Shown here in pieces: positions 1 to 48,918 of a stretch of DNA of 64,000 nt. The notes below the pieces were generated by a model. That model was not told where the DNA came from. It did no database searches and saw only the letters and a list, made by a program, of their open reading frames with translations. Within the stretch, counting starts at the first letter, position 1, and each line of letters begins with the position of its first letter. The DNA lies in the NCBI RefSeq assembly GCF_031454135.1, contig NZ_JAVDQF010000001.1, positions 2,728,001 to 2,792,000 of the forward strand, read 5' to 3'. Origin of the DNA: Arthrobacter russicus (GTDB taxonomy: Bacteria; Actinomycetota; Actinomycetes; Actinomycetales; Micrococcaceae). Made by a program: the position numbers and the translations under genes.

Positions 1-2703
1 CCAGGAACTGACGTACACGTTGACCTTCAAGAACACCGGTGCTGCCGCCGGAAACGTTGATCGTGTTGATGACTTGGCCAACGTTTTGGACGATGCCACG
101 ATCACCTCGGCTCCGGTGTCTTCGGATTCCGCGCTGACCGTGACGGACGGCGCGGATGCCAAGATCGCGATCAAAGGAACCTTGCAGCCGGGCCAGACGG
201 TCACCGTTACCTACAAGGTGACGGTGAAGCCGGATGGCCAGCGGGGCAATAACGTGTTGGGCAACTTCTTGGTTGATCCGGGCGTCACCCCGCCGACTAC
301 GTGTGAGCCGGGTAATCCGGACTGCACGGTGAACCCGGTACCGCAATTGGAGGATTCCAAGTCGGTGGATCCGGCGTCGAACACGACGGTGGTCGCCGGC
401 CAGGAGCTGACGTACACGTTGACCTTCAAGAACACCGGCGCGGCTGCCGGGGATGTTGACCGGGTCGATGACCTGAGCAACGTGCTCGATGACGCGACGT
501 TGACCACGGCGCCTTCCGCATCTGATTCGGCATTGACGGTTTCCGATGGCAGTGATGGCAAGATCACGGTCAAGGGAACCTTGCAGCCGGGCCAGACCGT
601 GACCGTTACCTACAAGGTGACGGTGAAGCCGGACGGCCAGCGGGGTAACAACGTGCTGGGCAACTTCTTGGTCAACCCAGGCGAGGAGCCGCCGACCACC
701 TGTGAACCGGGCAACCCGGATTGTACCGTGAACCCGGTGCCGCAATTGGAGGACTCCAAGTCGGTTGACCCGGCGTCGAACACGACCGTGGTCGCCGGCC
801 AGGAACTGACGTACACGTTGACCTTCAAGAACACCGGTGCTGCCGCCGGAAACGTTGATCGTGTTGATGACTTGGCCAACGTTTTGGACGATGCCACGAT
901 CACCTCGGCTCCGGTGTCTTCGGATTCCGCGCTGACCGTGACGGACGGCGCGGATGCCAAGATCGCGATCAAAGGAACCTTGCAGCCGGGCCAGACGGTC
1001 ACGGTGACCTACAAGGTGACGGTGAAGCCGGATGGCCAGCGGGGCAATAACGTGTTGGGCAACTTCTTGGTTGATCCGGGCGTCACCCCGCCGACCACGT
1101 GCGAGCCGGGCAATCCGGACTGCACGGTGAACCCGGTACCGCAATTGGAAGATTCCAAGTCGGTGGATCCGGCGTCGAACACGACGGTGGTCGCCGGCCA
1201 GGAGCTGACGTACACGTTGACCTTCAAGAACACCGGCGCGGCTGCCGGGGATGTTGACCGGGTCGATGACCTGAGCAACGTGCTCGATGACGCGACGTTG
1301 ACCACGGCGCCTTCCGCATCTGATTCGGCATTGACGGTTTCCGATGGCAGTGATGGCAAGATCACGGTCAAGGGAACCTTGCAGCCGGGCCAGACCGTGA
1401 CCGTGAGCTACAAGGTGACGGTGAAGCCGGATGGCCAGCGCGGCAATAATGTGTTGGGCAACTTCCTGGTGAATCCGGGTGAGGAGCCGCCGACCACGTG
1501 TGAGCCGGGAAACCCGGACTGTACGGTGAACCCGGTACCGCAACTGGAGGATTCCAAGAGCGTCGACCCGGCCTCCGGCACCACGGTGCGCGCAGGCCAG
1601 GAGCTGAGCTACACCTTGACCTTCGAGAACAAGGGCGCGGCGGCCGGCAATGTTGACCGGGTCGATGACCTGAGCAACGTGCTCGACGATGCCACGATCA
1701 CCTCGGCTCCGGTGTCTTCGGACTCCGCGCTGACCGTGACCAACGGCTCCGACGGCAAGATCTCGGTCAAGGGAACCCTGCAGCCGGGTCAGAAGGTCAC
1801 GGTGACTTACAAGGTGACGGTGAAGCCGGATGGCCAGCGCGGCGACAACGTGCTGGGTAACTTCTTGGTCAACCCAGGCGAGGAGCCGCCGACTACCTGC
1901 GAGCCGGGAAACCCGGACTGCACGGTGAACCCGGTACCGCAGTTGGAAGACTCCAAGTCCGTCGACCCGGCCTCCGGAGCCGCAGTATCGGCCGGCCAGG
2001 AGCTGACGTACACGTTGACCTTCAAGAACACCGGTGCGGCTGCCGGGGATGTTGACCGGGTCGATGACCTGAGCAACGTGCTCGACGACGCGACGATCAG
2101 CTCGGCACCGGTGTCCTCGGACTCCGCGCTGACGGTATCGGACGGCAGCGATGGAAAGATCACGGTCAAGGGTTCCTTGGCTGCCGGCCAAACCGTCACG
2201 GTGAGCTACACCGTGACCGTGAAGCCGAACGGCCAGCGCGGTGACAACGTGTTGGGCAACTTCCTGGTCGATCCGGGCGTCACTCCGCCGACCACCTGCG
2301 AGCCGGGAAACCCGGACTGCACGGTGAACCCGGCCTCGGACCTTTCGGACAAGAAATCGGTCAATCCGGCGTCCGGGACCGCGGTGACCCAGGGGCAGGA
2401 ACTCAGCTACACGCTGACCTTCGAGAACAAGGGTGCTGCCGCCGGAAACGTCGACCGGGTCGATGACCTGAGCAATGTGCTCGACGATGCCACGATCACG
2501 TCGGCTCCGGTGTCCTCGGACCCGGCGTTGACCGCTACCGATGGCAGCAACGGCAAGATCTCGGTCACGGGAACCCTGCAGCCGGGCCAGACAGTGACCG
2601 TGACCTACAAGGTGACGGTGAAGCCGGATGGACAGCGGGGCAATAACGTGTTGGGCAACTTCCTGGTGAACCCTGGTGAAGTCCCGCCGACCACGTGCGA
2701 ACC
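1..2703 (+). repeat. Seven in-frame 399-bp tandem repeats
   Basis: Equivalent positions recur at 1, 400, 799, 1198, 1597, 1996 and 2395, a strict 399-bp (133-codon) period; the last copy runs into the Pro-rich linker near 2703. Copies 1 and 3 encode the same visible protein, and copies 2 and 4 differ by a Thr/Ser change. This indicates a recent 798-bp A-B-A-B duplication on top of older divergent copies 5-7. Such arrays change copy number by recombination and are easily collapsed in short-read assemblies. Confidence 0.95.
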
Positions 2704-39459: not shown

Positions 39460-39549
39460 ATTCGATTTCGGCTGAAAAAGAGGTTCGACCGGTGTTTCCC
39501 TTGATGACTCGGTGTCGCAAAGTTTTTGCCGCCCGCCGACGCAGACGGC

Positions 39550-39562
39550 TAGCGTTGGCAGT
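39550..39562 (+). promoter_or_regulatory. Candidate leaderless promoter of cbs
   Basis: TAGCGT (39550-39555) fits TANNNT and ends seven bases before the ATG at 39563. There is no SD in the intervening bases. This layout is typical of leaderless actinobacterial transcripts. Confidence 0.4.
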
Positions 39563-40927
39563 ATGAAATATGCCAACTCGGTGCTTGACCTGATCGGAAA
39601 CACGCCACTGGTCAAATTGAACAGCGTCACCGAGGGGATCGCGGCCACGGTTCTGGCCAAAGTCGAGTACCTCAATCCCGGGGGATCCGCGAAGGACCGG
39701 ATCGCGGTCAAAATGCTCGACGAGGCGGCGAAGGCCGGGCTGATCGAACCCGGTGGAACTGTGGTCGAGCCGACCTCCGGCAACACCGGCGTCGCTATGG
39801 CGCTGGTGGCGCAGCAGCGCGGCTACAACTGCGTCTTCGTGGTGCCGGACAAAGTCTCCGAGGACAAAAGGGCGACGATCCGGGCCTACGGCGCCGAAGT
39901 GGTGGTCACCCCCACTGCGGTCGCCGCCGATTCGCCGCAGTCCTATTACGGGGTGTCGGATCGGATCGCGCGGGAGACTCCGGGTGCCTACAAGCCCGAC
40001 CAGTTCTCGAATCTGAATGGGCCGCTGAGCCATTACGAGAGCACGGGTCCGGAAATCTGGCGGGATACCGAAGGCAAAGTCACGCATTTCGTGGCCGGCA
40101 TCGGCACCGGGGGCACGATCACCGGTACCGGGCGGTACTTGCGTGAAATTTCCGGCGACACGGTGCGGGTCATCGGCGCTGATCCGGAAGGCTCCGTCTA
40201 TTCCGGCGGCACCGGGCGGCCATACCTGGTGGAGGGCGTCGGCGAAGACATCTGGCCGCCGGCCTATGATCCGGACGTGCCGCACGAGGTGATCGCGGTC
40301 AGCGATGCGGACAGCTTCGAGATGACCCGGCGGTTGGCCAAAGAAGAAGGCCTGTTGGTCGGCGGATCCAGCGGCATGGCCGTGGTCGCCGCGCTCCGCG
40401 CAGCCGAGGGCCTGGGGCCCGACGACGTCGTGGTCGTGCTGCTGCCGGATTCCGGACGCGGCTACCTGGCCAAGATCTTCAGCGATGAATGGATGCAGTC
40501 CTACGGCTTCCTCAAGCTCGGCGACGAACCTGCGGTCGGTGAAGTGCTCCGGGCCAAGACCGGCCAGCTGCCCGATCTGGTGCACATCCATCCGAACGAG
40601 ACGGTGCGCGACGTGATCCGGTTGATGGACGAGTACGGGGTTTCGCAGATCCCGGTGCTCAGCGCGGAACCGCCCGTCGTGATGGGCGAAGTGGTCGGCT
40701 CGGTGGACGAGCGGTTGCTGACCGCGAAGCTCTTCCGCGGCGAGGCCAAGATGACCGATAAGATCACCGAACACATGAGCGCGGTTCTGCCGATGGTCGG
40801 CTCCCTGGAGCCGATTTCCGCTGCCCGGGAAAAGCTGCAGGACGTCGACGCGCTGTTGGTGACCTTCGTCGGAGCTCCGGTGGGAATTCTTACCCGGCAC
40901 GATTTGCTGTTCTACCTGCAGGACTGA
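39563..40927 (+). CDS. cbs: Cystathionine beta-synthase
   Basis: A 454-residue PLP enzyme condensing homocysteine and serine to cystathionine. The cofactor lysine is Lys44 in NPGGSAKDRIAV, the substrate loop is PTSGNTGVAMALV, and the phosphate-binding glycine loop is GIGTGGTITGTGRYL. Two CBS domains follow from about residue 335, the regulatory module. There is no N-terminal heme domain. Upstream codons to 39512 are open but start inside the promoter region. Followed 59 bases later by the gamma-synthase gene, together forming a transsulfuration unit as in mycobacteria. Confidence 0.93.
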   Translation: MKYANSVLDLIGNTPLVKLNSVTEGIAATVLAKVEYLNPGGSAKDRIAVKMLDEAAKAGLIEPGGTVVEPTSGNTGVAMALVAQQRGYNCVFVVPDKVSEDKRATIRAYGAEVVVTPTAVAADSPQSYYGVSDRIARETPGAYKPDQFSNLNGPLSHYESTGPEIWRDTEGKVTHFVAGIGTGGTITGTGRYLREISGDTVRVIGADPEGSVYSGGTGRPYLVEGVGEDIWPPAYDPDVPHEVIAVSDADSFEMTRRLAKEEGLLVGGSSGMAVVAALRAAEGLGPDDVVVVLLPDSGRGYLAKIFSDEWMQSYGFLKLGDEPAVGEVLRAKTGQLPDLVHIHPNETVRDVIRLMDEYGVSQIPVLSAEPPVVMGEVVGSVDERLLTAKLFRGEAKMTDKITEHMSAVLPMVGSLEPISAAREKLQDVDALLVTFVGAPVGILTRHDLLFYLQD

Positions 40928-40986
40928 CTCCGGCGCCGATAGCAGGCTTCCTTTTGTACCGCATCTGATTTTTGGAGGATTCACCC

Positions 40987-42150
40987 GTGGCTGATCTCAA
41001 CGAGCTCGGTTTCAATACCCGCGCGGTCCACGCCGGGCAAGAGCCGGACCCAGTGACCGGGGCGGTGGTGGGCGGAATAGTGCAGTCCTCGACGTTCGCC
41101 CAGGACGGCATCGGCCAGTTGCGCAACGGCTACGAATACGGCCGTGGCACGAACCCGACCCGGGACTCGCTGCAGACCCAACTGGCCGCCGTCGAGCAGG
41201 CTCGGCACGCTTTTTCCTTCAGCTCCGGCTTGGCCGCGGAGGATTCGCTGATCCGGGCGCTGTTGCGGCCCGGCGACCACATCGTGCTCGGCAACGACGT
41301 TTACGGCGGCAGCTACCGGTTGATCGACCGGGTGCTCGGGCCGTGGGGGATCTCGCATTCCACTGCGGACATGGCCTCGGCGCCGAGCGTGGCCGCGGCG
41401 GCGACCGGAGCGACCAAGATGTTCTGGGTGGAAACGCCGTCGAACCCGATGATGAAGATCACCGATATCGCGGCGCTCGCCGAGATCGCACATGCGCAGG
41501 GCGCGCTGTTGCTCGTGGACAACACTTTCGCCTCGCCATACCTGCAGACTCCGATTGCCCTGGGTGCGGACATCGTGGTGCATTCGACCACCAAGTACAT
41601 CGGCGGGCACTCCGATGTGATCGGCGGTGCGGTGATGGTGAACGACGACGGGTTGGCTGAGAAGATCGGTTTCGTGCAGTTCGCGGTGGGCGCGGTTTCC
41701 GGACCGATGGACGCCTTTCTGACCACCCGCGGACTCAAGACGCTGGGCATCAGGATGGACCGGCATTCGGCGAACGCGCTGCAGATCGCGCAGTGGTTGA
41801 CCGGGCGCCCCGGGGTGGAGCGGGTGCTTTACCCCGGTTTGGCGGAGCACCCGGGGCACGAACTCGCGGCCCGGCAGATGCGCGCGTTCGGCGGCATGAT
41901 CTCGGTGCAGTTCTCCGGCGGGGCGCAGGTTGCCAGGGCGGTGGCCGAGTCCACCAAGCTGTTCACTCTGGCCGAATCGCTGGGTGGGATCGAATCTTTG
42001 ATGAATTACCCCGCGGAGATGACGCATGCCTCGGTGAAGGGTACCGAGTTGGAGGTCCCGGAGAACCTGATCCGGCTTTCCGTCGGCATCGAAGAGGTCG
42101 AAGACCTGATCGCGGACCTGGACCAGGCTTTGAAAATCGCAGTCAGCTGA
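40987..42150 (+). CDS. metB: Cystathionine gamma-synthase/lyase family enzyme
   Basis: A 387-residue Cys/Met-metabolism PLP enzyme. FSSGLAAEDSLIRALL binds the cofactor phosphate, the Schiff-base lysine is Lys203 in HSTTKYIGGHSDVIGG, and GGIESLMNYPAEMTH lies near the C-terminus. Sequence alone does not separate gamma-synthase from gamma-lyase; proximity to cbs is compatible with either, and mycobacterial order favours metB. GTG 40987 has GGAGG eight to nine bases upstream. Confidence 0.88.
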   Translation: MADLNELGFNTRAVHAGQEPDPVTGAVVGGIVQSSTFAQDGIGQLRNGYEYGRGTNPTRDSLQTQLAAVEQARHAFSFSSGLAAEDSLIRALLRPGDHIVLGNDVYGGSYRLIDRVLGPWGISHSTADMASAPSVAAAATGATKMFWVETPSNPMMKITDIAALAEIAHAQGALLLVDNTFASPYLQTPIALGADIVVHSTTKYIGGHSDVIGGAVMVNDDGLAEKIGFVQFAVGAVSGPMDAFLTTRGLKTLGIRMDRHSANALQIAQWLTGRPGVERVLYPGLAEHPGHELAARQMRAFGGMISVQFSGGAQVARAVAESTKLFTLAESLGGIESLMNYPAEMTHASVKGTELEVPENLIRLSVGIEEVEDLIADLDQALKIAVS

Positions 42151-42165
42151 GCCAAAGCCGAGCGC

Positions 42166-42210
42166 CCGGTGCGCTGCCGGATTCCCGGTTACCGGTTGGC
42201 TGCGCACCGG
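42166..42210. terminator. Hairpin between metB and Tat-protein gene
   Basis: CCGGTGCGC and GCGCACCGG pair around a 27-base loop in the short gap between the two convergent genes. Confidence 0.5.
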
Positions 42211-42228
42211 ACGCCGGGCTTCGCGGAA

Positions 42229-44730
42229 TCAGGCCGGCCAGGGTCGATTGCGGACTCGGCTGATAATATCTTGCGGCACCCCGACCAAGCTGTCCAAGGA
42301 GTCCTTGAATTTGGCATAGTCACCGTTTGCCGAGGAACTGGTGAAGCGTGCGAACGCCGTGCCCTGCACTCCGAAGAGGGATTGGCCGAGATCGTCAATC
42401 CAGCGTTTTTGGGTCTTCAGGACCTGGTTTCCGGTCAAGGTTTCGGTTTGCAGCGTGTCGAAGTAGACCGAGGCAAAGGCGATCTTCCGGCCCCAGTCAG
42501 TGACATATCCGGCATTCTGCAGCCGTTGGAACGTGGTGGTGGTGGCTTCGCGTTCCGGCGAGGTGGCATTGATGAATGCCAGGATCACGGCTACCAGGCC
42601 AAAGACGGCGGCGGCAAATCCCAGCGTCATCGCAACCACCCCTGCGGCAGCTGACGCGATGATTTCGAAAGTGATCGCGAGGCCGAGCCCTGACGATACC
42701 AGGGCCAGCGCGTCGGAGGTGAGGAAAAGCCAGCCACTGGCTCCCTGGGATTCCCCGCTGGACAATGAGACGACGTCGTAGCTGAACGCGAGCAGATCCC
42801 CGATGACGCCGGCCAGGGCCAGACTCGCAGTGAATACCCTGGCGCCGAGCCGGGCCGAGCTTGCGGCCAGTCCGGTGCCCGCGACAACCGATTCCATGAC
42901 TGCGGCCGAGGCTGAAGCTTCAACCTGATCCATGATCGCTGCTCGGGCCGCGCTTCTTCTCCCCGAGGGGAGTTTTGCCAAGGCTTCGTCGAGCGTTGAG
43001 TTCAAGGCTTGTTCAACCGATGATCCCGAAACGTCGATTCTCGGCTGGATTGCCACAGCGCCCTCTTCGGACAGCGAACGCAGCGCGGTGGCTGTGGTGT
43101 TCGAGACATTGTCGGCGGCAATGATTCCCCTCCAGGCGACGCCGGAAGACAGCTCGTAAACTTCTGGAGCAGCAAGATTGAACCCGGCAAGACTGGCTGC
43201 GGCTTTTGACGTGGTCTGGGCCTTGCTGAGGAAGGTCACCAGGAGCGTGCGCAACGACCCGAGGGCCGAATAGGTGCTGAAAACGCTTCCGGCGAAGCCT
43301 AGGGCGGTCGCTGGGGTGACCTTCTGCTTGGCGATTTTGTCGTTCAACGCCAACGACTTGTAAACCAACCGGGTGATCGAAAGCACTGCCGAAACCGAAC
43401 CTAGGACGCCGTGGGAATTCAAGGTATTGAGCCCGTCGACCAACTTCGCCTTAGCGCCGACGTTATTGGTGAAAACCGTGTCGGTTTCGGCAACAGCTTG
43501 GGAAATTTGGGCATTGGTGAATTCGCCGTTGGACTCTCCGACGAATTCAAAGGCGGTCAGCCGCATGAAGGTATTGCGGATCGCTACGCTTCGATCCAAC
43601 CCGGGGAGATCGTCGGCCGAGTTGGGCAGGAGTTCGAGGATGCCCGCAATCGCACTGGTGGCCTTCCGCAGTGTGGAGAGGGAAGATGCCCCGATTCCGA
43701 CCTCGAGATTCTCGAGGGTGTAGCGCTGCATGGTCACGTCGTAGGCTGAGTCCGCAGCGGGGAACTCGCCCTTGACGAACTGCTCGAAGGGCTGGGCCAA
43801 GTAGCTGCTGGCGGCTCCGGCGGAGATCTTCTGCAAGCTGGTGCCTGCTGGATCGAGGATGGTGATCGTAGCCATCTCGCGTGCATGCCAATACTTCTCA
43901 GCTTTGCTTAGAGCGGGGTCTTTGACGACTTCAACCAAGTACTTCTGATACCCGCTGGACGTCTGGCCGGTGATGAGTTTGGTTCGCCATTCGAGCGGAG
44001 TCAGAGGCTCTTGGTTGAGGCTGAAGCCGGACAGGATCCGGTTGATCAAGGCATTGCTGTAGTCGGCCTGGATTGCTTTGTTCCGCAGGCATTCCGCGAT
44101 ATCCAGGGAGGCTTTTTCGCGTCCGGCGTCCGGCTCCCCCGATGAGCCATTGAGCAGATAGGAGAGATCGGAAGGGTAGAGCGGAAAGTTCTTATCGCCG
44201 CCGTACGTTGCGGATCCTCCGTTGTTGTACAAGGCATTGGCCCACATGCCCGTGCTGGCGAGCGAGATGCAACTCATCGCGTCACTGAGCTTTTTCCGCA
44301 GTTCGGGAAGCCTCTGGGCGCTCGGATCGTTCGGTGCCGGGTCTACCTTCGAACTGGCGAAGAAGTGGGCCGATTCTGTGTCCACAGTGCGTTTCGACCA
44401 GGACTGACTGGTGTCTGCGGCATACGCTTCGCCGAGCGTGGTCAACGCCGTGTATCCAAAGCTCTTCGGGTCCTCGCCTTGGACGACAGTGGTGATGTCG
44501 GAAAAAGCCGTGACCGGGAGGCCGAATTGGTTGCGCAGCTGGTTGAGCTTGGCGGTGTCTGCTTCACTGGGCCGGTCCTCTCGGGCAATGGCTCCGGAGG
44601 ACTGGGGCTTCAGTGAGGTGGGCTTTGCGCTGGCTGGCGAAGCGGACAGGACCGGGATTGCGGCGCCGGTGAGAACCGCCAGGCTCAGGAACCCTCTACG
44701 GCCGAAGGCCTTGCTCATGGTGTTATTCAC
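42229..44730 (-). CDS. Tat-exported 833-residue protein with hydrophobic C-terminal tail, unknown function
   Basis: The start is GTG 44730 with GGGGAG six bases upstream (an ATG four codons later is the alternative). GRRGFLSLAVLTG at residues 10-22 is a twin-arginine signal, with likely cleavage after ASPASA at residue 35. The long middle is Ala/Ser/Leu-rich and helical. A first hydrophobic stretch falls at about 632-655, and a second bipartite one at about 670-718 (ALALVSSGLGLAITFEIIAS, then VAMTLGFAAAVFGLVAVILA). A soluble 115-residue tail follows. No known domain is recognised. The exported helical protein ending in a hydrophobic hairpin resembles the plan of pore-forming toxins, but also of an ordinary envelope protein. 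No lipobox, LPXTG or adjacent immunity-type gene is seen. Confidence 0.85.
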   Translation of the reverse strand: MNNTMSKAFGRRGFLSLAVLTGAAIPVLSASPASAKPTSLKPQSSGAIAREDRPSEADTAKLNQLRNQFGLPVTAFSDITTVVQGEDPKSFGYTALTTLGEAYAADTSQSWSKRTVDTESAHFFASSKVDPAPNDPSAQRLPELRKKLSDAMSCISLASTGMWANALYNNGGSATYGGDKNFPLYPSDLSYLLNGSSGEPDAGREKASLDIAECLRNKAIQADYSNALINRILSGFSLNQEPLTPLEWRTKLITGQTSSGYQKYLVEVVKDPALSKAEKYWHAREMATITILDPAGTSLQKISAGAASSYLAQPFEQFVKGEFPAADSAYDVTMQRYTLENLEVGIGASSLSTLRKATSAIAGILELLPNSADDLPGLDRSVAIRNTFMRLTAFEFVGESNGEFTNAQISQAVAETDTVFTNNVGAKAKLVDGLNTLNSHGVLGSVSAVLSITRLVYKSLALNDKIAKQKVTPATALGFAGSVFSTYSALGSLRTLLVTFLSKAQTTSKAAASLAGFNLAAPEVYELSSGVAWRGIIAADNVSNTTATALRSLSEEGAVAIQPRIDVSGSSVEQALNSTLDEALAKLPSGRRSAARAAIMDQVEASASAAVMESVVAGTGLAASSARLGARVFTASLALAGVIGDLLAFSYDVVSLSSGESQGASGWLFLTSDALALVSSGLGLAITFEIIASAAAGVVAMTLGFAAAVFGLVAVILAFINATSPEREATTTTFQRLQNAGYVTDWGRKIAFASVYFDTLQTETLTGNQVLKTQKRWIDDLGQSLFGVQGTAFARFTSSSANGDYAKFKDSLDSLVGVPQDIISRVRNRPWPA

Positions 44731-44778
44731 GAAAAACTCCCCAATGTGATGAATATCAGTTGATTGACCAGAATTTGT

Positions 44779-44800
44779 GTTGCACATCATTGGGTGCAAC
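44779..44800. promoter_or_regulatory. Inverted repeat GTTGCAC-N8-GTGCAAC
   Basis: Perfect 7-bp arms (8 bp counting the flanking T/A) lie 49 bp upstream of the Tat-protein start, in its promoter region. Candidate operator, regulator unknown. Confidence 0.45.
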
Positions 44801-45181
44801 AGCGCGCGAACGATTCGCAGTCGAAGCGTAAGTTCCGCAACCTGTCGGAAGTCTGACAGTAGTCTGAGTCCTGACTGTGTCCGGAGAATTCAACGTTTTT
44901 TACATTAATAATTTGCCTTGTTTTCGTAAAGACGCAGTGTCGGATTCAGTGGCATCTGGACCCGCACCGGGACGCTTCCTCTCCGATCTGCCTGGGGCTG
45001 ACGTGGAACAGGCGCTTGGCTGCGGTTCCGGATCCCTTATGCGAAATGAGCGGATGCCGGCACTAGCGTAATACTTCTTCATCGAATTCTGACGGAAATC
45101 CATCGATGAAGTTTTCGGTGCGGACCGTCGGAGATTCGCATTCGGGATAATTCGATATTTACTCGGATTTGAATTCTGGAA

Positions 45182-45218
45182 ATCGAATTTCAACGGTCAT
45201 GCATCGAATTTCAACGGT
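45182..45218. repeat. Direct repeat ATCGAATTTCAACGGT, 21-bp period
   Basis: Two exact 16-base copies at 45182-45197 and 45203-45218, two helical turns apart, about 300 bp upstream of the first protease. Spacing by whole turns suggests protein binding to one DNA face. Confidence 0.6.
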
Positions 45219-45518
45219 TCGTCCGGGCCTGCTGGGTTGGGCTGGTGGCAACCATCGGGGCGATGGAGCCACGGCCCGTCCGGTGAAAAGTAGGCCAATT
45301 CACAGCCCGCGGTCAGTCTGGGCGACGTTGTCTGCACGATGCACGCTGATTGCCTTGGAATAGCCTGGAAAAAGTGTCGTGAGGCAACTTCTGGGAGTAG
45401 CGTTCAAGCCGCGGCGGCAACAGCCAATCGTGGTTGCCGATTCGTTTTGGAACACTGTCCAGCGGGCAAAGACGCGCGCCGGATTCGATCATTCACAAAA
45501 TGACCAAGAAGGATAAGA

Positions 45519-46253
45519 ATGAACAAGATCTTCAAGTCGGTCCTGGTAGGGGCCGCTGCTGCATCGATGGCATTCCTCGGCACCGGCGCTGCGAGCGCTG
45601 CTCCGGTCGCTGGTGGTGGAGCCACTCCGGACATCGTCGGCGGCACCAAAGCCCCGGCCACCGCCTGGGAAGTCCAGTTGATCTTCGTGCAGAACGGCGG
45701 CACCTATGGTTGCACCGGCGAAGCCATTTCGGCCGACTGGATTCTGACCGCCAACCACTGCATCGATGGCGACACGTCAATGAACGTGTACTACTCGAAC
45801 AGCACCACCAACCGCGGTACCGCCATCAAAGCGGACAAATGGGTGACTTCCGGCAAGGGCGACGTGGCCCTGGTCCACCTCTCCCAGTCGAAGAACCTCG
45901 GTTCTTACCCGGCGCTGGCGGACAGCTACACCGCCACTTCCGGCGATGCCGGCAAGATCATGGGCTACGGCCGGCGCGCCAACGCTGCCAACGCCGATGG
46001 CCTCTACCAGGCCAACGTCACGGTGATCGGCAAGAGCACCGATGCCTACCGCGGCACCGCGGTGCACATCAAGGGCGTCGACGGCGCCGCGAACCACGGT
46101 GACTCCGGCGGCCCCTTGATCGTCGGCGGCAAGATCGTCGGCGTGTGCTCGACTGGTGACGACCAAGACCCCGGCGCGAATACCCAGGCCGGCAGCAACT
46201 ACGCCAATCTGACCGCTTCGCGCAGCTGGATCAAGAGCACCTCGGGCGTCTGA
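45519..46253 (+). CDS. Secreted chymotrypsin-fold serine protease, copy 1
   Basis: A 244-residue S1-family protease. A Sec signal peptide ends around GAASAA (residue 28), a short propeptide follows, then IVGG (39-42) as the mature N-terminus freed on activation. Triad: His80 (LTANHC), Asp115 (GDVALVHL), Ser196 (GDSGGP). The Cys65-Cys81 pair matches the first conserved disulfide; Cys210 (GVCST) has no visible partner. Six residues before the serine, where trypsin has Asp, there is Ala, so tryptic cleavage after Arg/Lys is not expected. AAGGAT precedes the ATG. First of four tandem paralogues. Confidence 0.92.
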   Translation: MNKIFKSVLVGAAAASMAFLGTGAASAAPVAGGGATPDIVGGTKAPATAWEVQLIFVQNGGTYGCTGEAISADWILTANHCIDGDTSMNVYYSNSTTNRGTAIKADKWVTSGKGDVALVHLSQSKNLGSYPALADSYTATSGDAGKIMGYGRRANAANADGLYQANVTVIGKSTDAYRGTAVHIKGVDGAANHGDSGGPLIVGGKIVGVCSTGDDQDPGANTQAGSNYANLTASRSWIKSTSGV

Positions 46254-46268
46254 GCCCTTTCCCCGGTC

Positions 46269-46298
46269 GTCGGGTGGCTCCCGTCCGAGCCACCCGAC
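46269..46298 (+). terminator. Hairpin after protease copy 1
   Basis: GTCGGGTGGCTC and GAGCCACCCGAC pair perfectly around a six-base loop, 15 bases after the stop. Copies 1 and 2 thus likely have separate transcripts. Confidence 0.75.
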
Positions 46299-46455
46299 CA
46301 CCTCGAACTGATTCCTGCCGGAGCTGAAGACGCGGGGCGCCTCAGCGTGGCGGTTGAATCTGTTTCACAATCTTTTGCCGAAACCGTAAATATGCCGAAT
46401 ATTTGCGGAGTTTTTTATGCCCATTTTCAGGAATAGAAAGAGACAGGAACCTATT

Positions 46456-47190
46456 GTGAACAAAGTTTTCAAGTCGGTATTGATCGGCGCGGCTGCTGCG
46501 TCGATGGCTTTCCTCGGCACCGGCGCGGCGAGCGCTGCTCCGGTCGCTGGTGGTGGAGCCACTCCGGACATCGTCGGCGGCACCAAAGCCCCGGCCACCG
46601 CCTGGGAAGTCCAGTTGATCTTCGTGCAGAACGGCAGCAGCTATGGTTGCACCGGCGAAGCCATCTCCGCTGAATGGGTCCTGACCGCCCAGCACTGCAT
46701 CGACGGCATCAGCTCGATGAATGTCTACTACAGCAACAGCACCACGAACCGCGGAACGGCCATTGCCGCCGACAACTGGGTTGCTTCGGACAACGGCGAC
46801 GTCGCCCTGGTGCACCTGTCCCAGTCGAAGAACCTCGGTTCCTACCCGGCGCTGGCGGACAGCTACACGGCCAACGCAGGCGACAAGGGTGTCGTGATGG
46901 GCTATGGCCGGCGCGCCAACGCGGTCCAATCCGATGGCCTCTACCAGGCGAATGTCCAGGTGGTCGGCGCCAGCACCGACGCCTACGGTGGCACGGCTGT
47001 GCACATCAAGGGCGTCAACGGCGCTTCCAACCACGGTGACTCCGGCGGGCCTTTGTTGGTCGGCGGCAAGATCGTGGGCGTCTGCTCCACGGGCGATAGC
47101 TCGGATCCCGGTGCGGACATCCATGCCGGCAGCAACTACGCCAACCTGACTGATTCCCGTCAGTGGATCTCGGACACCGCAGGGGTCTGA
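46456..47190 (+). CDS. Secreted chymotrypsin-fold serine protease, copy 2
   Basis: At 244 residues it is the closest relative of copy 1: the same signal and propeptide (APVAGGGATPD before IVGG), with His80, Asp115 and Ser196 conserved. It likewise has an unpaired third cysteine, Cys210 (GVCST). Start GTG 46456 is chosen because MNKVFKSVLIGAAAAS aligns with all paralogues; an upstream ATG at 46417 would add a charged 13-residue extension before the signal. Changes relative to copy 1 cluster in surface loops (for example NGSSYG for NGGTYG). Confidence 0.9.
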   Translation: MNKVFKSVLIGAAAASMAFLGTGAASAAPVAGGGATPDIVGGTKAPATAWEVQLIFVQNGSSYGCTGEAISAEWVLTAQHCIDGISSMNVYYSNSTTNRGTAIAADNWVASDNGDVALVHLSQSKNLGSYPALADSYTANAGDKGVVMGYGRRANAVQSDGLYQANVQVVGASTDAYGGTAVHIKGVNGASNHGDSGGPLLVGGKIVGVCSTGDSSDPGADIHAGSNYANLTDSRQWISDTAGV

Positions 47191-47205
47191 TTCAGAGCTT
47201 TGAAG

Positions 47206-47244
47206 CAATGGCCGGCCTACTTGAACTGGGTAGGCCGGCCATTG
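47206..47244 (+). terminator. Hairpin after protease copy 2
   Basis: CAATGGCCGGCCTA and TAGGCCGGCCATTG are exact complements around an 11-base loop. Confidence 0.75.
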
Positions 47245-47279
47245 CGCTATATATCCCAGCAAAAACAAAGGAGTTTTCG

Positions 47280-48008
47280 ATGAACAAGGTCTTGAAATCC
47301 GTTTTGGTCGGTGCAGCTGCTGCATCGATGGCATTCGTCGGCGTGGGGGCGGCCAATGCTGCTCCGGTCGGCTCCGGGTCGACTCCGGATATCGTCGGTG
47401 GCACCAAGGCCCCAGCGACGCCGTGGGCGGTCCAGCTCATTTTCCAGCAGGACGGGGCCAGCTACGGTTGCACCGGCGAAGCAATTTCGGCCGAGTGGGT
47501 ATTGACCGCTAATCACTGTGTCGACGGCGATACCGGGATGAAGGTCTACTACTCGAACAGCACCACGAACCGTGGCACCGGCATCGCTGTAGACCAGTTC
47601 TACTCGTCGACCAATGGCGACGTCGCTCTGGTTCACCTTTCGCAGGCAAAGAACTTGGGCTCTTATCCGGCGCTGGCGGACAGCTACACCGCAAAAGCCG
47701 GTGATCAAGCCGTGATCATGGGTTACGGACACCGCGCCAACGGCGCCAACGCGGATGGCCTCTACCAGGCAAACGTCAAGGTCCTCGGCTCAAGCACCGA
47801 TGCGTATGACGGCACCGCGGTGCACATCCAAGGCGTTAACGGTGGCGCAAACCATGGCGACTCCGGCGGCCCGATCATCATCGGCGGCAAGATCGTCGGC
47901 GTCGCGTCAACGGTCGACGCGGAGCCCGGCGCAAGCACTACCGGAAAAGCCAACTACGCCAACCTGACAGATTCGCGCCAGTGGATTTCAGACACTTCGG
48001 GCGTCTGA
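47280..48008 (+). CDS. Secreted chymotrypsin-fold serine protease, copy 3
   Basis: A 242-residue paralogue with signal peptide to about GAANAA, IVGG at 38-41, His79, Asp114 and Ser195. It has only the two disulfide cysteines; the third cysteine of copies 1-2 is Ala (GVASTV). The pocket residue before the serine motif is Gly/Ala (GGANHGDSGG). AAAGGAG six bases before ATG 47280 gives it the best SD of the array. In this feature it groups with copy 4. Confidence 0.92.
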   Translation: MNKVLKSVLVGAAAASMAFVGVGAANAAPVGSGSTPDIVGGTKAPATPWAVQLIFQQDGASYGCTGEAISAEWVLTANHCVDGDTGMKVYYSNSTTNRGTGIAVDQFYSSTNGDVALVHLSQAKNLGSYPALADSYTAKAGDQAVIMGYGHRANGANADGLYQANVKVLGSSTDAYDGTAVHIQGVNGGANHGDSGGPIIIGGKIVGVASTVDAEPGASTTGKANYANLTDSRQWISDTSGV

Positions 48009-48102
48009 ACTAAGTCCGGCATCTGACCGGCTGGCCCGGTCCCGGTAAAGGGCCCGGTCAGCTGTTTTTCCTAACCCCCAACTTCGTCTGAAGGAATTCC
48101 TC

Positions 48103-48840
48103 ATGAACAAGATTTTCAGATCGGTTCTGGTCGGTGCGGCTGCCGCGTCGATCGCTTTCATCGGCGCCGGCGCAGCCGGCGCTGCCCCGGTCGGCAACGG
48201 CGGGGCGACGCCGAACATCGTCGGCGGCAGCAAAGCCCCGGCGACGCCGTGGGCGGTTCAGCTCATTTTCCAGAAGACCGGGCAGTCGGGCAGCTTCGGT
48301 TGCACCGGCGAGGCCATTTCTGCCGATTGGGTCTTGACCGCGGGGCACTGCGTCAAGGGCGTCAGCGGCATGAAGGTCTACTACTCCAACGTGACTCCGG
48401 CCAGCGGCGAGAACATCGCGGTCGACAACTTCTACTCGCAGCCGGGCAACGACGTTGCTTTGGTGCACTTGTCGAAGTCCAAGCAGCTGGACTCCTACCC
48501 GGCGCTCACGGACAGCTACAAGGTCAGCACCTCGGACACCGGGTTGATCATGGGTTACGGGCACCGTGCAAACGACGCGGTCGCTGATGGCCTCTACCAG
48601 GCCAAGCAGAAAGTCATCGGCTCCAGCAGCGACACCGCAGGCGGCCCGGCGATCCACCTGCAAGGTGTGGATGGCAGCGCCAACCGCGGCGATTCCGGCG
48701 GCCCGTTGATCATCGGCGGCAAAATCGTCGGCGTTGCTTCGACGGTTGATTCGCTTCCTGGCGCAAGCACCACGGGCAAGGCCAACTACGCGAGCGTGAC
48801 GAACGCCCGCCAGTGGATCAAGAGCACTTCCGGAGTCTGA
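48103..48840 (+). CDS. Secreted chymotrypsin-fold serine protease, copy 4
   Basis: The most divergent copy, 245 residues: His82, Asp117, Ser198, IVGG at 39-42 in TPNIVGGSKAP, and a two-residue insertion before the first cysteine. The serine motif is SANRGDSGGP, with Arg in place of the His found just before GDSGG in the other copies. The loop after GMKVYYSN lacks the STTNRG shared by copies 1-3. ATG 48103 is preceded by GAAGGAATT. A strong terminator closes the array. Confidence 0.92.
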   Translation: MNKIFRSVLVGAAAASIAFIGAGAAGAAPVGNGGATPNIVGGSKAPATPWAVQLIFQKTGQSGSFGCTGEAISADWVLTAGHCVKGVSGMKVYYSNVTPASGENIAVDNFYSQPGNDVALVHLSKSKQLDSYPALTDSYKVSTSDTGLIMGYGHRANDAVADGLYQAKQKVIGSSSDTAGGPAIHLQGVDGSANRGDSGGPLIIGGKIVGVASTVDSLPGASTTGKANYASVTNARQWIKSTSGV

Positions 48841-48863
48841 TTTTCCGGCCAAAGCCAGGTAGC

Positions 48864-48902
48864 AAAAAGGTGCGCTAAACACTGTGTTTAGCGCACCTTT
48901 TT
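48864..48902. terminator. Terminator at end of protease array
   Basis: An A/T-flanked stem AAAAAGGTGCGCTAAACA with its exact complement, ending TTTTT; bidirectional between protease copy 4 and the convergent dehydrogenase gene. Confidence 0.9.
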
Positions 48903-48918
48903 GTCGATTAGCCCGGCT

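Follow-up and report, generated by a model that had tools for sequence, protein, structure and literature searches.

A species-restricted orphan gene of Arthrobacter russicus encodes a probably exported protein with a long hydrophobic stretch

Within the 64,000-nucleotide stretch of Arthrobacter russicus DNA analysed here (the window), a PALP and CBS gene (39512-40927, plus strand) and a Cys/Met PLP gene (40972-42150, plus strand) are followed by an open frame of 833 codons on the minus strand (42229..44730), here called the ORFan, and then, after a 788-bp gap, by four tandem secreted trypsin-family genes recognised by Pfam (45519-48840, plus strand). The coordinates and the length of 833 residues given in the original prediction are correct, and the strand is minus. 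The frame opens with a GTG at 44730, six bases downstream of the ribosome binding site GGGGAG (44737..44742, minus strand), and an ATG four codons inside the frame is an alternative start candidate. GC content at the three codon positions (0.57/0.50/0.73) is that of coding sequence, its third-position value being somewhat low beside those of the two PLP genes (0.85 and 0.82) and kdpA (0.84); the listed ORF of the third trypsin gene, in which the start is overlong, has a third-position value of 0.71. The encoded protein is rich in alanine (14.4%) and serine (11.4%), contains two cysteines (C154 and C214) and has a mature mass of about 84 kDa.

The N-terminus of the protein (...KAFGRRGFLSLAVLTGAAIPVLSASPASA-KP, or in a fuller reading MNNTMSKAFGRRGFLSLAVLTGAAIPVLSASPASA-KP) carries a predicted Tat-type signal peptide at residues 1-35 (44626..44730, minus strand), in which arginines 11-12 are followed by GFL, residues 13-35 are uncharged and a candidate cleavage site is formed by ASA before K36. 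Judged by eye against the twin-arginine motif, we take this to be a Tat-type signal. A TatC gene is present in this genome (PF00902, E 1.6e-58, above the cut-off), and the combination of motif, uncharged h-region, cleavage site and TatC agrees with the earlier proposal that the protein is a Tat substrate. The protein is probably exported, and we infer that this would occur by the Tat rather than the Sec route, the signal being compatible with Sec too.

The most distinctive part of the protein lies at residues 666-722 (42565..42735, minus strand), a hydrophobic stretch of 57 residues with no lysine or arginine, in which D673 and E689 are the only charges. It is followed by a further 111 residues (723-833; 42229..42564 with the stop codon, minus strand) that contain 13 K/R and 11 D/E, with no cluster of basic residues after the stretch and only R727 nearby. 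Hydropathy was compared with shuffles of the protein minus its first 40 residues, its own composition being kept. The best 19-residue window (702-720, KD 2.57) was matched by 42 of 5000 shuffles, while the best 31-residue window (690-720, KD 2.45) and the best 49-residue window (674-722, KD 2.04) were each matched by none of 5000; 176 of 2000 shuffles contained a charge-free run of 36 residues. In a protein with so few charges one greasy helix is less remarkable, and the unusual feature of the stretch is its length. The bipartite hydrophobic segment first noticed at about residues 670-718 is borne out by long-scale hydropathy above that of the shuffles. Six membrane proteins of the window have KD19 values of 2.18-3.01 and KD49 values of 1.40-2.32, compared with 0.71-1.54 and 0.22-0.85 in eight other proteins of the window, and the hydropathy of the ORFan protein beyond its first 40 residues is within the membrane-protein range. 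The hydrophobic moment is low (0.04-0.22 for windows starting at 669-705). Judged from these features, contact of the protein with a membrane is likely.

Structure prediction from the single sequence with AlphaFold gave helices only, both at full length (mean pLDDT 36.6) and for residues 563-833 (mean pLDDT 44.9). The alanine content and these low-confidence models are consistent with the alanine-rich, helical body that had been proposed. A Foldseek search with the low-confidence model of residues 563-833 returned one uninformative match (E 9.2), and both models are too low in confidence to count as evidence for or against any fold. No internal duplication was found, scores between three parts of the protein being matched by 168, 43 and 74 of 200 shuffles.

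No family was found for the protein in Pfam (E up to 10, whole protein and three parts), NCBIfam (E up to 1) or PADLOC (E up to 5), and the whole protein had no match in PHROGs (E up to 5) or among PDB sequences (E up to 10), with nothing firm from the latter two collections; the original description of a protein with no recognised domain holds. Part matches to PHROGs at E 0.31 (a holin, over the hydrophobic stretch) and E 0.39 (residues 1-25), and matches of residues 563-833 to PDB sequences at E 0.019 and 2.2, were taken as chance. Within the genus, the ORFan occurs in two of seven genomes, both of one species (its own and G097). The broader samples, which overlap and cover part of their groups, gave matches in 3 of 395 genomes of the family (its own, the same-species G097 and G115) and in a single genome each for the order (1/396), phylum (1/396) and class (1/296), while both of the genomes matched at E up to 0.01 among 147 from the order of genome G777 were rejected. 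Partial queries (residues 563-833 and 33-562) matched 5 of 120 genomes (its own, the same species and three weak) and 2 of 226, adding nothing firm. The sensitivity of the large searches is limited and distant relatives may be missed, because few candidates (two, three or six) were scored per genome in the matches listed. A pattern scan of genome contigs, which reaches close relatives only and by which other phyla were solely covered, matched 46 stretches, one of which encoded a relative: contig JAFOLH010000011.1 of a same-species MAG, Renibacterium sp. RGIG571 from dairy cattle duodenum, which G097 is taken to be. Plasmids and phages gave no match to the protein, and none of four stretches of viral contigs that fitted the pattern encoded a relative.

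Four weak matches were rejected on inspection of their loci. By Pfam, one falls inside a glycoside hydrolase family 3 gene but in a different frame (L035), one is a gene of the FtsW/RodA family (L040) and one covers acyl-CoA dehydrogenase and CoA-transferase genes (L041); at the last (L036) the match is broken by three stops, tblastn found nothing at E up to 1, and Pfam assigned no family to either of two long ORFs at the locus. The best weak match among the 395 genomes, in G115 (L004/L039; E 3.4e-4 per genome, 6.7e-5 with residues 563-833 as query), crosses a stop, beyond which it follows the frame of a 171-aa ORF whose alignment covers residues 626-725 (30% over 101 residues, single-comparison E 1e-5). 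This ORF is one fifth of the ORFan length, with no Pfam family and no signal-like start, and the match is most likely chance. On sequence comparison, the ORFan is without a firm relative outside its own species in the samples searched. Literature searches found no article joining a Tat signal, pore formation, Arthrobacter and secretion, and none for the combination of alpha-PFT terms used; neither 'twin-arginine' nor 'pore-forming toxin' occurs in titles among the matches listed for that pair, and RGIG571 is named by none among the Renibacterium matches listed. In a term search of PMC9558359, 'twin-arginine', 'Tat pathway' and 'signal peptide' were absent and the hairpin gave a single hit, among the references.

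The two same-species copies differ at 6 of 833 residues, with no gaps and the frame open in both genomes. The 30 base differences between them, 22 at third positions, comprise 24 synonymous and 6 non-synonymous changes (dN 0.0032, dS 0.039, dN/dS 0.083), compared with dN/dS values for the same genome pair of 0.073 in the Cys/Met PLP gene, 0.034-0.13 in the four trypsins and 0.10 in an acyl-CoA dehydrogenase. The dS of 0.039 is the lowest among the seven genes compared, the next being 0.063. The ORFan is under purifying selection, and with 2.5 kb of coding sequence it clearly qualifies as a large orphan that is selected and probably exported.

Comparison with congeners placed the gene at a site of changing content. 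The segment that bears it (42125..45393) is without a counterpart in two congeners, which have both the trypsins and the Cys/Met PLP gene and lack more than 3.2 kb: approximately 225 bp of unmatched sequence stands in place of 42134-45393 in G129, and approximately 40 bp in place of 42125-45349 in G077. An MFS transporter occupies the same interval in both G026 and G114, accompanied in G026 by an HxlR regulator and in G114 by a gene that matches an endonuclease-like family below the cut-off; in G054 a transglycosylase-LysM gene follows the Cys/Met PLP gene and no trypsin match was found at E up to 1e-5. The interval is therefore a variable site. The original prediction had set the protein against a battery of secreted proteases; the four trypsin genes are real, but since the array exists without the ORFan in congeners and the site is variable, adjacency is no evidence of a functional link and the arrangement is probably coincidence. 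No obvious candidate for an immunity gene was found among six-frame ORFs of at least 40 aa in 42151-45518, which are short and mostly overlapping; the longest ORF of the 788-bp gap that does not run into the first trypsin gene has 97 aa and a TTG start.

The best explanation, a tentative one, is that the ORFan encodes an exported, species-restricted and mostly helical protein with a hairpin that embeds in the producer's own membrane and anchors the protein in the envelope. The Tat-type signal, as its motif suggests, would carry the protein across the membrane; residues 666-722 would then fold as a hydrophobic helical hairpin and enter a membrane, most likely the producer's own and from its outer face, and the embedded hairpin would hold the remaining protein in the cell envelope. 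We infer both the hairpin topology and the membrane concerned, the producer's membrane being somewhat more likely than a target's, and the ranking among envelope, target membrane and soluble core is a matter of judgement. The lack of an obvious immunity gene candidate nearby mildly favours a role in the cell's own envelope. The original prediction had regarded the combination of Tat export and a hydrophobic segment as unusual, an argument weakened by the description, in passages of PMC10924467, of Tat substrates with C-terminal transmembrane helices, new ones particularly in actinobacteria. Many of the candidates in these passages are actinobacterial and without cofactors, and like the ORFan they combine a Tat-type signal with a hydrophobic segment towards the C-terminus. 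However, such proteins are described there as usually having a single terminal helix rather than a hairpin, the search specified a transmembrane helix at most 50 residues from the C-terminus, and most of the 16 candidate C-tails in the passages carry a basic cluster (PMC10924467). The ORFan stretch is longer, at 57 residues, lacks such a cluster and ends at residue 722 of 833, so that with 111 residues beyond it the protein is not a tail anchor in the sense of that search. The missing basic cluster and the residues beyond the stretch count against an anchor, as does the fact that the buried hairpin of a soluble secreted protein would look identical. If the envelope reading is true, the ORFan would be another orphan in the actinobacterial Tat membrane set.

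A possible, rather doubtful alternative is a secreted alpha-helical pore-former, which would be soluble, with its hairpin sheathed by flanking helices, and would insert into the membrane of a competitor or host. The long, bipartite and nearly uncharged stretch, with acidic charges only and no stop-transfer cluster, would suit such a protein, as would the helices-only, low-confidence models and, presumably, the restriction of the gene to one species at a variable site, as in many competition genes; against it stand the absence of a sequence relation to any toxin family found and of an obvious immunity gene in the interval given above. Passages of PMC7914777 describe for pore-forming colicins a long hydrophobic stretch forming a hairpin that moves from a soluble to an inserted state; the ORFan protein resembles them in its predicted helices and in a stretch that could form a hairpin. 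The Pfam model of the colicin pore domain gave no match at E up to 10 to the whole protein or its three parts. Unlike colicins, the ORFan combines probable export by a signal peptide with a long tail after the putative hairpin. Alpha-PFTs of the cytolysin A type (ClyA/Hbl/Nhe) are also helical proteins in which helices flank a hydrophobic segment, an arrangement that the ORFan protein, with helices predicted at low confidence, may share, but it has no match to that family in Pfam or PDB sequences. The fuller proposal of a new Tat-exported helical membrane-permeabilising family, whose protein would fold with the hairpin sheathed ahead of export and which one Renibacterium-like species would have gained and turned against competitors or host cells, is unlikely; membrane insertion after Tat export, if true, would offer a test of whether Tat can carry a sheathed insertion hairpin.

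It is similarly improbable that the protein is a soluble secreted enzyme or binding protein in which the hydrophobic stretch is only a buried core. Composition alone does give the 19-residue peak and the charge-free run in some shuffles, and C154 and C214 could pair outside the cell; however, the windows of 31 and 49 residues were equalled by no shuffle, and KD49 in the eight non-membrane neighbours does not exceed 0.85. That the ORFan is not a gene, or is decaying, would fit the missing firm homologue outside the species and the third-position GC below that of the PLP genes and kdpA, but is very improbable given the excess of synonymous differences, the open, gap-free frame in both genomes and the intact ribosome site and signal peptide.

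Several minor features were observed around the gene and the trypsin array. Approximately 110 bases upstream of the ORFan start, an 18-bp near-palindrome, CTGTCGGAAGTCTGACAG (44842..44859), is a candidate operator; its one exact match in the genome is itself, and since two one-mismatch sites both lie inside listed ORFs no regulon is claimed. Consensus promoter-like and terminator-like sites were no commoner than in shuffles (1 compared with 1.0, and 2 compared with 3.2). In the gap before the trypsins, ATCGAATTTCAACGGT occurs twice, exactly, 21 bp apart (45182-45218), with a 75% copy at 45081-45096. The second to fourth trypsin genes are 66-84% identical to the first, four congeners carry one to three copies next to the corresponding Cys/Met PLP gene, and the synonymous divergence separating the two same-species genomes climbs from 0.078 to 0.158 along the array. 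The 41 bases after the last trypsin (48863-48903) match the same-species locus L002 at 100% in the opposite orientation too, so that they probably form a hairpin, which may act as a terminator where two genes converge.
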